Below, one piece after another: positions 2,378 to 15,686 of a stretch of DNA of 35,741 bases. Under the pieces are notes generated by a model that worked only from the letters and a program-made list of their open reading frames with translations, had not been told where the DNA came from and ran no database searches. The number at the start of each line of letters is the position of its first letter. Position 1 is the stretch's first letter. Position numbers and translations under genes: made by a program. The stretch covers positions 1 through 35,741 of IMG/VR virus record IMGVR_UViG_3300017991_000241; one strand, given 5' to 3'. This stretch comes from a virus.

Positions 2378-2412
2378 AAAAAAGAGGGATTACCTCCTAG
2401 AGGGTCCCTCTT
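2378..2412 (-). terminator. Intrinsic terminator after the tmRNA coding half
   Basis: On the minus strand AAGAGGGA and TCCCTCTT form an 8-bp stem (2405-2412 with 2382-2389), followed by a run of six T (2383-2378). An inner CCTCTAGGAGG palindrome lies in the loop. The hairpin begins about 8 nt after the tag stop codon, so it ends the tmRNA precursor just behind the coding half. This is strong support for the permuted gene order. Confidence 0.75.
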
Positions 2413-2419
2413 CCAGGAA

Positions 2420-2527
2420 TTAAGCCGCAAGCTTAAACTCCCTGTTGATTGACAATGAATTGTCGGTTGTTGTTAAAATCATTCTCGGTATATCATACTC
2501 ATTTGCTGTCAAAACCAAATCAGCCCC
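2420..2527 (-). ncRNA. ssrA: tmRNA coding half with tag frame (I)NREFKLAA
   Basis: This piece starts at the expected RNase P site before GGGGCTG and contains the short tag frame. LAA-stop is the classical degradation signal recognised by ClpXP-type proteases. The resume codon is not certain. AAC (2446-2444) has an A four bases upstream, as in Escherichia coli tmRNA. Starting at ATC would add one Ile. No long pseudoknots fit behind the tag, which matches the reduced form of two-piece tmRNAs. Confidence 0.8.
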
Positions 2528-2793
2528 AAAAAGGTAGTAAGCCCGTTCTGTCCTTAAACTATTAAATGGAATTGAACCATACCGTTAATGGGGATTTACA
2601 CCCCAATTACTTACTACCAAAACTAATTGGCAAAATATCCTATCTCCGGGAACTCTTAGCGACCGGTTCTTCAGACCGGAACGGACAGGAAATGAGCTAT
2701 CCCCAACCCCCCTGACGGGGCAACCCATCGTTTCGCCAGAAGTCAGGTCCTGGTTTATCGATTAGTTATTTTCTTTTCTTTTCAGAGATATTG
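2528..2793 (-). ncRNA. Intervening segment of the permuted tmRNA precursor, structured
   Basis: This is the part of the precursor between the mature 3' and 5' ends, expected to be removed. Several perfect helices are visible: 2742-2747 with 2711-2716 (6 bp); 2675-2679 with 2663-2667 (5 bp); 2610-2618 with 2533-2541 (9 bp, CTTACTACC/GGTAGTAAG), which ends 5 nt before the coding half; and 2590-2593 with 2601-2604. CCAATTA/TAATTGG (2624-2630 with 2603-2609) would form a pseudoknot with the 9-bp helix. I see no open reading frame, tRNA or group I intron core. The length, about 265 nt, seems large for a simple processing spacer. Confidence 0.6.
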
Positions 2794-2880
2794 TGGAGCT
2801 GCGGGGAGTCGAACCCCGGTCCAAACAAACTTTCATAAATACGTCAATGAACGATTTCATTAATAAATAGTAGTCTGGTA

Positions 2881-3626: not shown

Positions 3627-3843
3627 GATCTAAAGATTTTAAGGTTTGTTGTAATTTTTCCAAAGTTTTTTGGTCTTGGGCTTTTATTAAAGTATGTTGT
3701 TGACATTTTTCCCAAACATCATTCAGAGTTAATTGTATCAGTTCAAGATTTTCTTCTTTTGCCTTTAAGTTCATTGCTCCTCTAAGCTGCCCATTTAGAA
3801 AATGGGAAATATTATTCAGATATTCTTGAATTTCTTCGTCCAT
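3601..3843 (-). CDS. Helical hypothetical protein, 80 aa
   Basis: An 80-residue, almost entirely helical protein (MDEEIQEYLNNISHFLNGQL at the start, KTLEKLQQTLKSLDHG near the end). Heptad-like Leu spacing in the C-terminal half suggests a short coiled coil. It is the first gene of the leftward operon that runs from 3843 through the tmRNA. A copy of the recurrent intergenic element lies immediately upstream. No function can be assigned. Confidence 0.6.
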   Translation of the reverse strand: MDEEIQEYLNNISHFLNGQLRGAMNLKAKEENLELIQLTLNDVWEKCQQHTLIKAQDQKTLEKLQQTLKSLDHGTEKENS

Positions 3844-3844
3844 T

Positions 3845-3902
3845 TTATTTCAAATAGTACTTAGGATACTAGCAAGACTATTTTTTCTATCCAAAAAGGA
3901 TT
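3845..3902. promoter_or_regulatory. Divergent control region with intergenic element copy B
   Basis: This 59-bp gap separates the leftward operon from the rightward methyltransferase gene. On the minus strand it contains CTAGTATCCTAAGTACTAT plus TTGAAATAAAA (3872-3845), the same element as copy A. On the plus strand an AT-rich tract (GACTATTTTTTCTATCC) precedes the ATG at 3903. It must hold signals for both directions, though no classical sigma-70 boxes are convincing. Confidence 0.5.
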
Positions 3903-4937: not shown

Positions 4938-5641
4938 TTAAAAAATACCTAACAAACGGGCAATATCTTACCCAAGAGTATGAAAAGAAATCTATCTTTC
5001 TTCATCATACTGTAGGTACAAATGCTATGAGTGCTTGGAGATGGTGGAATTCAACTCCTGAAAGAGTAGGTACTCCTTATATTATTGACCGAGATGGGAG
5101 CATTTTAGAATGCTTTGATCCTAAGATGTGGGCCTTTCATCTCGGTGTAGTAGGAGATGATAATTGGCATGAAAAACATAGTATCAATATAGAGCTGGTT
5201 TCAGCTGGTCCACTAGTTGAAGAAAATAAAGAATATCGTTTTTACCCCCTTTATCCTAATAAGCTTCGTTGGACTACAATCCCTGAATCCGAAGTTATAA
5301 AGAAAAAGTGGAGGGGTTATGAAATATTCCATAATTACTCTGATGCCCAATTAGAATCCTTGTCTTGGCTTATTGGTCGATTATTCCTTGATTTCCCAGG
5401 ACTAAGAGTTGATAATGATTTAGAGAAATTCTTTGAGTACGATAAATCTGTATTAACTGAACATAAAGGGGGCATCTGGTCTCATAGCACTGTAAGGGAG
5501 AATAAATCGGATATTATACCTACAAAAGAGCTGATAAAGGCTCTAATATCCGTTCAAAAAGATCTGATGCCCCCTAAATCTCCTCCTAAGCCTGTTCCTA
5601 AAGCTAGTAATAGGAATAAATCTTCTAAAAAGCAATCCTAA
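4928..5641 (+). CDS. Endolysin, N-acetylmuramoyl-L-alanine amidase (Amidase_2 fold)
   Basis: A 237-residue cytoplasmic-type endolysin without a signal peptide. The Amidase_2/PGRP features are FLHHTVG (His26-His27), WAFHLG (His71), HSINIELV (Glu89) and the C-terminal WSHSTVRENKSDI (His186, Asp195). One of His26 or His27, plus His186 and Asp195, fits the zinc site of T7 lysozyme-like amidases, with Asp in place of the Cys. It would cut the amide bond between MurNAc and L-Ala in peptidoglycan at the end of infection. The tail after residue 215 is Pro- and Lys-rich (MPPKSPPKPVPKAS) and looks disordered. The gene overlaps the methyltransferase by 10 nt and precedes a membrane-anchored protein that may be a spanin. 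Confidence 0.85.
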   Translation: MEIIKKYLTNGQYLTQEYEKKSIFLHHTVGTNAMSAWRWWNSTPERVGTPYIIDRDGSILECFDPKMWAFHLGVVGDDNWHEKHSINIELVSAGPLVEENKEYRFYPLYPNKLRWTTIPESEVIKKKWRGYEIFHNYSDAQLESLSWLIGRLFLDFPGLRVDNDLEKFFEYDKSVLTEHKGGIWSHSTVRENKSDIIPTKELIKALISVQKDLMPPKSPPKPVPKASNRNKSSKKQS

Positions 5642-5678
5642 ATCCTAGTTTTTTATTCTTAACGCCACGGGATAAATT

Positions 5679-5714
5679 ATAGTAGCACCCCCCTTAAAAA
5701 AAGGGGTGCACTAT
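5679..5714. repeat. Strong GC-rich hairpin between lysis genes
   Basis: GCACCCC (5685-5691) and GGGGTGC (5703-5709) pair perfectly around an A-rich 11-nt loop. The flanking ATAGT and ACTAT extend the stem to about 12 bp with one bulged A. No T-run follows on the plus strand, so it is not a standard terminator. It may protect or separate mRNAs between the endolysin gene and the next gene. Confidence 0.55.
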
Positions 5715-5743
5715 ATAATTTAATCCCTCTAGGGCTCCAGTTT

Positions 5744-6442
5744 ATGAAAGAAATTAAAGAAATCTTACAACTACTAATCTTAGCTACTATTCTTAGCCTA
5801 GTTGTATGGCTTATTTTCTTTAAAAAGCCACAAAAGGTTGTAGAATATAAATACAGGACTATCACAACTAGAATTCCATATCCTTATTCAGTTCCTGAAC
5901 CATACCCAGTTCCTACTCCTCCTTCAAAAGTAATAGTTTATGAAATTGATTCTATAGCCTTAGATTCTTTAAAAATTCTTCTTCAAGGTCAGGAATTAAT
6001 TATTGCAGGATTAAGGGATTCTATTAGGATAAATGAAGCCTTTCTTAAACAATTTCCAAGAAATCCAAAACTTCTATCATTAGAGGTAAAGAAAGATTCT
6101 ATAAAAATGGATTTACTTGAAATATCGGGTTACCCTGGAGATTGGTATTTACCCGTAGATTTTAATCACTATTCATATCGTTGGAATCTTTCTTCCGGTT
6201 TTACAAGAAAAAATGTAAAGCCCACTATATTGCCCCCCACGTTGAAAGAGCCTTTTGCAAACTACTTCGTGGGGGGCGGTGTTGATCTTTGGCACAGAAT
6301 GCCATATATATCGGCCCGTGCTGAAAAACAATTTTCTAGTACAAGGCTATATATTGGTACTCAAATTGGACTATTAGAATTAGACAGGAGTAATTTACAT
6401 GTTGGAGTAGAGTATCAATTAAATGGCAAAAACAAGCCTTGA
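5744..6442 (+). CDS. Membrane-anchored envelope protein, possible spanin
   Basis: A 232-residue protein with an N-terminal membrane helix (about residues 11-27, ILATILSLVVWLIFFKK) after a short acidic cytoplasmic tail. A Pro-rich stretch follows (YPYSVPEPYPVPTPPSK, about 46-62), then a helical segment with coiled-coil tendency (about 65-125). The C-terminal third has alternating strands that end in aromatic or hydrophobic residues (YISARAEKQF, RLYIGTQIGLLEL, LHVGVEYQL), as in outer-membrane beta-strands. The location behind an endolysin and the design (inner-membrane anchor, periplasmic spacer, outer-membrane-like end) suggest a role in the last lysis step, in the manner of a unimolecular spanin. 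No lipobox is visible. The function is an inference. It overlaps the terminase start by 20 nt. Confidence 0.55.
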   Translation: MKEIKEILQLLILATILSLVVWLIFFKKPQKVVEYKYRTITTRIPYPYSVPEPYPVPTPPSKVIVYEIDSIALDSLKILLQGQELIIAGLRDSIRINEAFLKQFPRNPKLLSLEVKKDSIKMDLLEISGYPGDWYLPVDFNHYSYRWNLSSGFTRKNVKPTILPPTLKEPFANYFVGGGVDLWHRMPYISARAEKQFSSTRLYIGTQIGLLELDRSNLHVGVEYQLNGKNKP

Positions 6443-7928
6443 CATATCAAAAGGAATTACTGCTAAGGAATTTGAAATTTTAAAGAGGGTCATTGATGAC
6501 CCTTTTTTATTTTCAACCTTTGCCAAAGTTATACATCCAATCAGGGGTCGAGTTAATTTTGATTTATACTCATTTCAAAAATCTGTTCTTTGGGAATTTC
6601 TTGTAAATCGATTTAACATTGTTTTAAAATTTAGGCAAGCAGGTATTACTGAACTAATTTCTTTATATTGCCTTTGGTTGGCAATGTTCCATTATCATAA
6701 AAACATTCAAATTATTTCTATTAAGGATAGGGTTGCTAAAAAGGTACTTCGTCGTATTAAGTACATGTATAGAAACCTTCCACCTTTTCTTCAAATTCCT
6801 ATTGTAAATGGTAGAATCTCAGAACTTGGTACATCAACCGAAATTGAATTTTCAAACGGAAGTATCATCACCAGTATTCCTACTACAGAAGATGCTGGAC
6901 GATCTGAAGCAGTATCCTTGTTGGTTATTGACGAAGCAGCCATCGTGCGTTGGGCGACGCAAATTTGGGCGGCAGCGTTTCCGACTTTATCGACAGGAGG
7001 TTCAGCTATTCTTAACTCTACCCCATACGGAGTGGGAAACTTTTTCCATAAACAATGGGTGGATGCGGTTTCAGGAGGAAATGAATTTATTCCAATTAGA
7101 TTACATTGGAGGATGCACCCCGAAAGAGATGATGAATGGTACAGAGTCATGTCATCTGCTCTTGGGCCCCGTCGGACAGCTCAGGAAATCGATGGAGACT
7201 TTCTTACTTCGGGGTCATCCGTTTTCGATCTTTTGGATATAAAAGCAATTGAAGATGGGTTAAGTGAAATTGAAATTTTTGATTTAGAACAAAATGGGAA
7301 TTTAGTTATTCTTAGATTACCTCAACAAGGAGAACTTTGTTACATGGGGGCTGATGTTGCCACAGGTAGAAGTAGAGATTATTCTGCTTTTTCTATTATG
7401 AATCGGAAAGGAGAAGAATTAGCTTATTATAAAGGTAAAATTGGAGTTCCCCAATTTGCGGACCTTTTGATGAGAAAAGGAAGACAATTTAATAATGCCT
7501 TAATTGCTCCAGAAAGTAATGATATTGGTTTAGCAGTTACAACAAAGATTCAAGAAAGTGGTTATCCAAATCTTTTTTATACTACTAAATTTTTAAAAGA
7601 AAAAGGAGAAGCTAAACCGAAGAAGAGTAAAATACCAGGATGGTATACAGATAGGAAAACAAGGCCGATTATTATTGATGAATTGGAAAACGATATTCGA
7701 AATGATCTGGTTGAAATCTATAATAAATTCTTTATTCAAGAAGCTTATACTTTTATTTATGATGAAAGAAATAGGCCTGTAGCTATGGGTAAAAGTTCAA
7801 GAGGAGATGATGTAGATATTTTAGAAGATGAAGAAAATACCTATACTGATGATAGTATTCTTGGAGAAGCCATTACAAATTTTGTAAGAAAAGGTAAAGC
7901 TACTTCGGTAGTGGTGGCCCCTCGATAA
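6423..7928 (+). CDS. terL: Terminase large subunit
   Basis: The 501-residue DNA-packaging motor and nuclease. The ATPase part has a degenerate Walker A in LKFRQAGITEL (about 69-78), a Walker B SLLVIDEAA (165-173, Asp170 and Glu171) and a coupling motif ILNSTPYG (196-203). The RNase H-like nuclease part has MGADVATG (Asp311), IAPESND (Glu364) and TDDSILGEA (Asp476/477), a normal acidic triad. It acts at the portal vertex of the prohead and cuts concatemeric DNA. Length and motif order match T4-like and other phage terminases. The start overlaps the previous gene by 20 nt. No small terminase gene is recognisable nearby; it may lie outside the window. Confidence 0.93.
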   Translation: MAKTSLDISKGITAKEFEILKRVIDDPFLFSTFAKVIHPIRGRVNFDLYSFQKSVLWEFLVNRFNIVLKFRQAGITELISLYCLWLAMFHYHKNIQIISIKDRVAKKVLRRIKYMYRNLPPFLQIPIVNGRISELGTSTEIEFSNGSIITSIPTTEDAGRSEAVSLLVIDEAAIVRWATQIWAAAFPTLSTGGSAILNSTPYGVGNFFHKQWVDAVSGGNEFIPIRLHWRMHPERDDEWYRVMSSALGPRRTAQEIDGDFLTSGSSVFDLLDIKAIEDGLSEIEIFDLEQNGNLVILRLPQQGELCYMGADVATGRSRDYSAFSIMNRKGEELAYYKGKIGVPQFADLLMRKGRQFNNALIAPESNDIGLAVTTKIQESGYPNLFYTTKFLKEKGEAKPKKSKIPGWYTDRKTRPIIIDELENDIRNDLVEIYNKFFIQEAYTFIYDERNRPVAMGKSSRGDDVDILEDEENTYTDDSILGEAITNFVRKGKATSVVVAPR

Positions 7929-7931
7929 CTT

Positions 7932-11614: not shown

Positions 11615-11640
11615 CAGTACCATTTAAAATATAAATAAAA
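11615..11640 (+). promoter_or_regulatory. Recurrent intergenic element before major capsid gene
   Basis: CAGTACCATTTAAAATATAA plus ATAAAA lies between the decoration and major capsid genes. The AT-rich right half extends directly into the A-tract that precedes the capsid start at 11663. It precedes what should be the most highly expressed gene of the window. Confidence 0.45.
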
Positions 11641-13920: not shown

Positions 13921-14214
13921 ATGGGAAAGTCAATAAAAGATAACTTAGCTAAGGAGAAAAAATACAAGCCGACAAAGGAAGAGATCGAAGCCGGCGAACT
14001 TGTATTGCCAGAGGGCTATGAACTGAAAAAAGTTAAGACCGTTGTTCAATGGATCGCAGAGATCGAAGCCGAGATTGCCGAGATAGACAGCCTAAAACCA
14101 CCTACTGAAGCTGAACTGATAATTATTGGTAAGGATTATCATTTTTATTATATGGATCAGCGAAGAAAGGAAATGTTGAAAACAGAGGTTGAAGAGTTGA
14201 AAAAATGGCTATAA
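13921..14214 (+). CDS. Small helical protein before fibre gene, 97 aa
   Basis: A 97-residue, highly charged helical protein. Its middle reads KPTKEEIEAGELVLPEGYEL, and it ends with RKEMLKTEVEELKKWL. It overlaps the following fibre gene by 10 nt and so is probably co-translated with it. A fibre-assembly helper or attachment adaptor is conceivable by position. Codon use is richer in G and C than in the tail genes. No family is recognised. Confidence 0.55.
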   Translation: MGKSIKDNLAKEKKYKPTKEEIEAGELVLPEGYELKKVKTVVQWIAEIEAEIAEIDSLKPPTEAELIIIGKDYHFYYMDQRRKEMLKTEVEELKKWL

Positions 14215-15686
14215 CATTAGAAGGGCTAAAAATAACTATATCTGCTGAACCGGGAGGTATCGGGTCGTCGGAAAGTAATCCATATAGGATGTCTGACCTT
14301 GCTGCCTCTGTCCCGAATATAATAGAAATTATTGTTGGCGGTGGTTCTGCAAGAACTTTTTACTACTGTCCGTATGCTTTGCATTTATCGCCGCTTACTC
14401 ACTTTAAGTTTTATATGGAAATGGTTCTTTTTGGAGAAGATGTAAACCATTTAGGGAGTAGATTAAATAGTGGGTCTGCCTCATATTTTTATTTGACTAA
14501 TACACAGATGATGGAAAACGGCACAGAGTTTAGTACGTTATATAATTTTATAGCTACTGATTGTGCATTTTTTCATTTTAGGGGATTTTCCTTTTATACA
14601 GGCGTTAGATTAACGCGCTGTAAATTTGTGTCAGTAGGTAGTACATATTGGAGTAATTCAACAAACATAGAAATATATGATTGCTCTATGTCTGGTACGC
14701 CTTATGGGAACATTCCAAGGAACAATATAGTAGATATTAGAAATAAATTAATGAACTGTACTTATGGTTTATTATTGGGATATAATACAGGTGGAGATGT
14801 TAAATTATATAATACTGAAATTATAGGGTGTACAAATGATTTAGCATACCAACCGTTAACACATTTAAATTATACGACTACACTTGTCGACCCGTTAGTT
14901 GATTTAAATAAACAACTATTGATGGTTACAACGAGTGGAAAAAAAGTAACGTTGGATGTAGCCACATTAATGAGTTTTGTTTTGAATGATGCAGATGGAG
15001 CGTCAATTGTAATATATGATAAAGATGGGAATATTCATTATCAGGGATTATACTCAGAAGGGTTACAGGAAGAAGTTGTATATTATCGGCGGTATGTAAA
15101 GTCACAAGGGATATATGGTGTACCAGAAGAGGACGTTGAAAATACGTATCATCCTTTTGTGATAGAGGTTATAAAATCAGAATATCAGCCGTTGATAATT
15201 CCAAATATATTTGTTGTATCAGGTAAGGCTACAAATATAATAGGTAGAATGGTATTGGTTGCTCTTTCAATCGATTCTGTAAGCATTACAGATGCTACGG
15301 AGATTGGGGGAACGGACGGGAGCTTGGAGATTACGGCGAGTGGTGGAGATGGTAGTTACGAATACTCCATCAACGGCACTGATTATCAGGCCAGCAATAC
15401 GTTCACCGGACTGGCCGCGGGAACTTATACGGTATATGTTCGGGACGGCGAAGGGACCGCGGAAACATTAGAAGATGTTGAAGTGACCGAACCTGAGCTA
15501 AGATATATTCATATACATTCCCAAAGCCCTACTAATGTTGAAATAAAAGAAGAAACTAAAGAAGTGGAATTAAAATCTGATCCTATAGTTCAAGTTAATA
15601 ATAGTGAAATTAATATAATACAAATACCTTCTAATGAAACTCAGGTTAAATTAGATGATAATGAGATTGATATACAAATTGATTAA
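14205..15686 (+). CDS. Fibre or adhesin with beta-helix and SprB-type repeat
   Basis: A 493-residue protein without a signal peptide. Residues about 20-220 contain short, regularly spaced strands with Cys and aromatic residues (ATDCAFFHFRGFSFYTGVRL, TRCKFVSVGS, IEIYDCSMSG, KLYNTEIIGCTNDL), as in a right-handed beta-helix. A second domain follows at about 230-350. Residues about 360-430 match the SprB repeat: GGTDGSLEITASGGDGSYEY, then SINGTDYQASNTFTGLAAGT, then YTVYVRDGEG. SprB repeats are known from cell-surface adhesins of gliding Flavobacteria. The last 60 residues are repetitive, with EIKEETKEVELK and VKLDDNEIDIQID. The SprB-coding segment (about 15290-15490) is GC-rich relative to its flanks, suggesting separate acquisition. 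Likely a virion fibre or host-binding protein. Confidence 0.65.
   Translation: MAITLEGLKITISAEPGGIGSSESNPYRMSDLAASVPNIIEIIVGGGSARTFYYCPYALHLSPLTHFKFYMEMVLFGEDVNHLGSRLNSGSASYFYLTNTQMMENGTEFSTLYNFIATDCAFFHFRGFSFYTGVRLTRCKFVSVGSTYWSNSTNIEIYDCSMSGTPYGNIPRNNIVDIRNKLMNCTYGLLLGYNTGGDVKLYNTEIIGCTNDLAYQPLTHLNYTTTLVDPLVDLNKQLLMVTTSGKKVTLDVATLMSFVLNDADGASIVIYDKDGNIHYQGLYSEGLQEEVVYYRRYVKSQGIYGVPEEDVENTYHPFVIEVIKSEYQPLIIPNIFVVSGKATNIIGRMVLVALSIDSVSITDATEIGGTDGSLEITASGGDGSYEYSINGTDYQASNTFTGLAAGTYTVYVRDGEGTAETLEDVEVTEPELRYIHIHSQSPTNVEIKEETKEVELKSDPIVQVNNSEINIIQIPSNETQVKLDDNEIDIQID

Follow-up and report, generated by a model that had tools for sequence, protein, structure and literature searches.

The window, by which is meant the whole stretch of 35,741 nucleotides analysed here (IMG/VR virus record IMGVR_UViG_3300017991_000241), encodes a terminase, a portal protein, a major head protein and a tail sheath, and therefore belongs to a contractile-tailed phage. 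Between two small genes lies a gap of 538 nt (2343-2880), the minus strand of which holds what is best read as a circularly permuted, two-piece tmRNA gene carried by the phage, whose processing and function we infer. Along that strand, GGAC, a T-arm and CAGCTCC-A are followed by a spacer, then by GGGGCTG and TTTGGTTTTGACAG, a tag reading frame and a terminator (Table 1). This is the reverse of the order in the standard tmRNA family (RF00023), in that the 3' half of the tRNA-like domain stands upstream of the 5' half. A preliminary description of this DNA had proposed the permuted order from the T-arm, the acceptor halves and the D-loop motif, together with seven acceptor pairs, a G-U as the third, and a terminator directly behind a tag ending in LAA-stop. 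Its coordinates and pairs are right: all seven pairs are present (G-C, G-C, G-U, G-C, C-G, U-A and G-C), the G-U of alanine identity is pair 3, and the hairpin and T run can be read at 2410-2378. CCA is not fully encoded, as CAA follows the discriminator A, and most relatives likewise lack an encoded CCA.

The whole window was compared with the 4227 families of Rfam release 15. RF04321 (tmRNA_permuted), a merger of the alpha, beta and cyanobacterial two-piece tmRNA families, matched at 2420-2852 on the minus strand with 62.1 bits (E = 7.2e-10, cut-off 47), aligned end to end, and was the sole family above curated thresholds across the entire window. With that family the gene shares the gene order, an acceptor stem with G3-U70, the T-arm, the D-loop motif and a tag with its stop. 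The preliminary description had looked to covariance models, a search that could have come out empty, and to ARAGORN for support; RF04321 provided it, while the other tools did not. RF00023 covers the 3' half alone with 39.6 bits, under its cut-off of 47. The alphaproteobacterial RF01849 gave 17.4 bits on the gene (cut-off 50) and the cyanobacterial RF01851 12.8 bits (cut-off 70, a weak test given that the Synechococcus elongatus control genome also failed to reach it), the betaproteobacterial RF01850 had no match at its gathering threshold (84) in the whole window, and ARAGORN called no tmRNA in the window.

Table 1. Positions of the tmRNA gene features in the window and of related features in other records.
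Feature	Record	Position	Strand	Basis
3' (acceptor) piece: P2 strand, GGAC, T-arm, acceptor 3' strand, discriminator	Window	2792..2852	-	RF04321 alignment; 5' end approximate
P2-like helix, 3' piece strand	Window	2824..2860	-	Duplex prediction with 2473-2507; runs a few bases upstream of the RF04321 match
T-arm CGGGG-TTCGACT-CCCCG	Window	2802..2818	-	Sequence and RF04321 alignment
Acceptor 3' strand CAGCTCC	Window	2795..2801	-	Sequence
Discriminator A	Window	2794	-	Sequence
Gap between acceptor strands (intervening sequence, discriminator and CCA positions), 267 nt, 43% G+C	Window	2528..2794	-	Sequence
T-arm-like element TATGG-TTCAATT-CCAT inside the spacer	Window	2566..2581	-	Sequence; possible tRNA remnant
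Acceptor 5' strand GGGGCTG, start of coding piece	Window	2521..2527	-	Seven pairs with 2795-2801
D-loop motif TTTGGTTTTGACAG	Window	2506..2519	-	Sequence; same type in relatives
P2-like helix, 5' piece strand	Window	2473..2507	-	Duplex prediction with 2824-2860
Tag reading frame (T)DNSLSINREFKLAA and stop TAA	Window	2420..2467	-	Translation of sequence
Intrinsic terminator: hairpin GAGGGA...TCCCTC (2410-2384), then TTTTTT (2383-2378)	Window	2378..2410	-	Sequence; terminator scan found part
Candidate tmRNA promoter ACTACTATTTATTAATG, diverged form of phage motif AGTACTATTTATAATAA	Window	2858..2874	-	Resemblance to AGTACTATTTATAATAA; counterpart in L018
tRNA-Ala(TGC) in tmRNA spacer	L181	3674-3748	-	
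tRNA-Ala(TGC) in tmRNA spacer	L189	4786-4860	-	
tRNA-Ala(TGC) in tmRNA spacer	L192	4462-4536	+	
Prophage with permuted tmRNA	G279, contig C1 (L251-L252)	968000-1004000		

Beyond the acceptor stem, a P2-like duplex of -20.6 kcal/mol is predicted between the 43 nt before the T-arm and the first 60 nt after the D-loop, and it beats those with 42 other partners in either direction. Among 43 dereplicated relatives, whose relatedness is only partly controlled, native P2 partners surpassed shuffled ones in 2000 of 2000 permutations. By these predictions, a long P2-like helix offers the two pieces a further means of pairing, and the partners are specific. The tag frame ends in TTT AAG CTT GCG GCT TAA, giving a peptide that closes with FKLAA and the stop TAA at 2422-2420. 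To judge from the tags that ARAGORN called in relatives, such as DNKTIKINNYVGIIAA, the resume codon is probably GAC at 2464-2462, with the tag DNSLSINREFKLAA read from there. A resume codon of either GAC or ACC is not typical, which counts against the best explanation.

The tmRNA gene may have a promoter of its own. The 17-mer AGTACTATTTATAATAA occurs exactly at 2350-2366 and with two mismatches at 3845-3861, both on the minus strand, and each copy opens a minus-strand gene block; near-matches, which also lie at 11616, 15886 and 27702, number five in the window against 0.58 expected. The motif is held within a 33-nt repeat (2348-2380 and 3843-3875 on the minus strand, 91% identical) at the starts of the same two blocks, a repeat that is likely, from its sequence and placement, to be a phage promoter. 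Diverged copies of AGTACTATTTATAATAA precede the tmRNA both in the window and in the related contig L018, where AGTACTATTATAATATG stands immediately upstream, and it is for this reason that a promoter specific to the tmRNA is considered possible.

Relatives of the gene and the length of its spacer

The terminase relatives found in IMG/VR include L018 and L025. The terminase of L018 is 78% identical over the compared segment, and a permuted tmRNA (52.6 bits with RF04321) lies near its DNA methylase gene. The record of L025, the terminase of which is 35% identical, also holds L032, a permuted tmRNA scoring 62.3 bits. Acceptor pair 5 is C-G in the window, G-C in L018 and A-U in L032; pair 3 is G-U in all three. 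As a separate observation, the L018 terminase gene (5390-7930) seems to contain an in-frame insert of about 350 residues (846 aa versus 501 aa), which resembles an intein that includes a homing-endonuclease part.

Two pattern scans of IMG/VR for short and medium spacers returned 75 and 15 stretches, which together with L097, described below, make 91 candidates. As many as 85 of these virus-contig candidates were validated as Bacteroidota-type permuted tmRNAs by a T-arm of at least 4 pairs, an acceptor stem of at least 6 pairs and the D-loop motif, and every one of the 85 has G-U at pair 3. The pattern scans demanded a TTTGAC D-loop, and D-loop frequencies are not readable from their counts. 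The RF04321 cut-off was passed by 25 of 27 related contigs checked, and ARAGORN called a permuted tmRNA in 35 of 44. By plain DNA similarity search, phage and plasmid matches were confined to the T-arm region. The permuted tmRNA is common in this kind of phage, and the window case is mostly ordinary save for its long spacer.

The 267-nt spacer is exceptional and constitutes the main unusual trait of the gene. The corresponding gap measures 51 nt in L018, 21 nt in L032 and 7-105 nt in other phage copies; it is 19-23 nt in most pattern-found copies, the scans being limited to certain spacer lengths. In base composition the spacer lies above the window (43% versus 37% G+C). A conserved structure was rejected, as the fold energy is at shuffle level (z = -0.33). 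Known RNAs were likewise set aside, no Rfam family appearing at E <= 10 beyond chance-level matches to AdoCbl-II (15.3 bits) and mir-1490, and no group I intron was found. An RNase-P-like stretch, GACAGAACGGGCTTAC, had four matches in IMG/VR, and the two of these inspected are unrelated sequence. Inside the spacer, neither ARAGORN nor Rfam gave a tRNA model match. Even so, a decayed tRNA is conceivable there, since the spacer contains a T-arm-like element and an intact tRNA-Ala(TGC) approximately fills the permuted-tmRNA spacer in three IMG/VR virus contigs (Table 1). The authors of the tmRNA database described one tRNA-in-spacer case, from a nominally archaeal genome (a MAG), and termed it unique (PMC11915505); that case may be a misbinned phage contig.

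The same spacer raises the prospect that the gene is decaying, its length blocking or slowing processing so that the phage makes no working tmRNA. Because the spacer is much longer than that of most relatives and folds no better than shuffled sequence, its correct processing is not assured; the D-loop spacing moreover exceeds that of most relatives by one base, and ARAGORN misses the gene. Decay is nevertheless improbable, given that the acceptor stem, the T-arm, P2, the tag frame and the terminator have each been kept intact. An IMG/VR scan for spacers of 245-275 nt also bears on the matter: among its 11 stretches, ten are unrelated and mostly coding by eye, and the sole tmRNA, L097, combines an intact gene with a spacer that is likewise 267 nt long and unrelated in sequence to that of the window.

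Host, known systems and origin

The host of the phage is likely, though not proven, to be a member of the Bacteroidota. A Shine-Dalgarno core lies upstream of only one of the 37 window genes, and near-absence of such cores is a trait pointing to this phylum. Several of the window's proteins carry a Bacteroidota-style leader peptide that ends in Q, and a phage protein encoded among the structural genes (14205-15686) has an SprB-like repeat (PF13573) at 25.5 bits, under the cut-off of 28. The assignment falls short of proof because terminase relatives in bacterial contigs are mixed, the nearest being on MAG contigs labelled Spirochaetaceae and Bacillota.

The expectation that Bacteroidota carry one-piece tmRNA was borne out, as 96 of 99 sampled Bacteroidota genomes passed the RF00023 cut-off. 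RF04321 was passed by a single genome, G279, among 296 (the phylum being that of a Flavobacteriales MAG), and there the permuted copy, L086, resides in a prophage while a standard tmRNA is also present (160.3 bits with RF00023). The prophage is recognized from the neighbours of L086, which comprise tRNA genes, a phage DNA polymerase, a DnaB-like helicase, a primase, rII-like genes (rIIA/rIIB-like) and an integrase.

The preliminary description had further known of no permuted tmRNA in a Bacteroidota phage, and this claim of novelty is not borne out. The literature already contains phage two-piece tmRNA: methylophage Melnitz has one, and 53 among 133 unique structures of phage tmRNA were called two-piece (PMC9004378). 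Like the window gene, the tmRNAs of Melnitz and related marine phages are permuted and phage-borne; unlike it, they are of the alphaproteobacterial type, adjoin a glutamine riboswitch and belong to phages of marine Pseudomonadota hosts (PMC9004378). The tmRNAs annotated in GenBank/RefSeq for the crAss-like phages cr7_1 and cr124_1 (Burzaovirus) and cr10_1 (Canhaevirus) are permuted like that of the window and score 66.4, 63.3 and 49.6 bits, respectively, with RF04321. Their D-loops, UUUUGAC or AUUUGAC, are similar to that of the window, but their spacers are about 71-100 nt and they come from another phage group. A literature search found no paper discussing the permuted tmRNA of these three phages. 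Given the published phage tmRNAs and the annotated crAss-like copies, the window gene is not a new kind, and the G279 prophage and the 85 further contigs add to the known cases.

How the permuted form arose in these phages invites a tentative suggestion. The permuted tmRNAs of Bacteroidota phages could represent a separate, fourth permutation, this time of the Bacteroidota-type one-piece tmRNA, with the spacer then serving as a slot for tRNA genes or other sequence, although we regard this origin as possible rather than probable. It is favoured by the D-loop UUUGAC and the canonical T-loop UUCGACU, which match part of the standard Bacteroidota tmRNAs and differ from the UCGAC and GGCRGUA-like motifs of sampled Pseudomonadota permuted genes, as well as by the failure of the alphaproteobacterial and cyanobacterial models and by the three contigs whose spacer holds a tRNA-Ala. 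Standard Bacteroidota tmRNA (RF00023) shares with the window gene the acceptor and the canonical T-loop, and TTGGAC and GGTTTTGACAG motifs occur in part of the phylum; it differs in being one molecule with its halves in the opposite order and a pseudoknot region between them. Identity across the tRNA-like domain places all phage copies nearer the standard genes of Bacteroidota, but two controls, from a cyanophage and a Ruegeria phage, look equally Bacteroidota-like, and the comparison therefore does not discriminate.

Proposed action and significance

From the observed gene order, sequence elements, pairing potential and conservation, we infer a course of transcription, cutting, charging and tagging. 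In known two-piece tmRNA, tRNA-processing enzymes cut the transcript into pieces that remain paired (PMC11915505, PMC9004378). By analogy, a single transcript of the window gene, probably starting near 2850, would be cut by host tRNA-processing enzymes, with RNase P cutting before G2527 and the 3' tRNase after A2794, and the 267-nt spacer would be discarded. Since CCA is not encoded (A-CAA), it would be added to the acceptor end after cutting. The acceptor and coding pieces would then be held together by the seven-pair acceptor stem and the P2-like helix, and host alanyl-tRNA synthetase would charge the molecule by way of G3-U70. An smpB gene was not seen in the window, a result of little weight given that the window is a genome fragment, and host SmpB would serve. 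Together, SmpB and the tmRNA would free stalled ribosomes and tag the unfinished protein with a peptide ending in FKLAA. The benefit to the phage would most simply be a supply of ribosome rescue during infection; the preliminary description had suggested that a phage copy could sustain such rescue late in infection or steer tagged proteins. Taken as a whole, a circularly permuted tmRNA (ssrA) of a contractile-tailed phage, most likely of Bacteroidota, that is cut, charged and used for tagging as proposed is very probably the correct reading.

With respect to phage benefit, the main rival is a decoy, in which the tRNA-like part would bind host SmpB or ribosomes and dampen host trans-translation. 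Such a role has been proposed for phage DS6A, the tmRNA of which consists of the tRNA-like domain only (PMC4131195). A similar molecule, also restricted to the tRNA-like domain, is described as a strong inhibitor of tmRNA that perhaps acts through titration of SmpB (Mao 2009, cited in PMC4131195), and the likely host already has a tmRNA of its own. A decoy, however, needs no tag, and a complete frame with its stop and LAA end is kept both in this gene and in relatives whose tags differ but are alike in style, leaving this role little probability. Finally, the notion that a standard tmRNA gene was misassembled into the permuted order, which arises with any metagenomic virus contig such as this one, is excluded for practical purposes, because L018, L032 and many other distinct contigs share the order in different sequence with compensatory acceptor changes, and because the terminator directly follows the tag as the permuted form predicts.

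A phage-borne tmRNA gene in permuted form thus remains the preferred reading. For annotators, it is relevant that copies with long spacers are missed by ARAGORN and sometimes by the Rfam cut-off. In terms of phage biology, the phages of Pseudomonadota and cyanobacteria are not the only ones with permuted tmRNA: it is also carried by a large phage group, of which at least one member is integrated in a Bacteroidota genome and whose hosts have a one-piece tmRNA of their own. A clean test is therefore possible, since the host RNase P, 3' tRNase, CCA-adding enzyme, alanyl-tRNA synthetase and SmpB deal normally with the one-piece form only, and since phage and host tags differ and are hence distinguishable.
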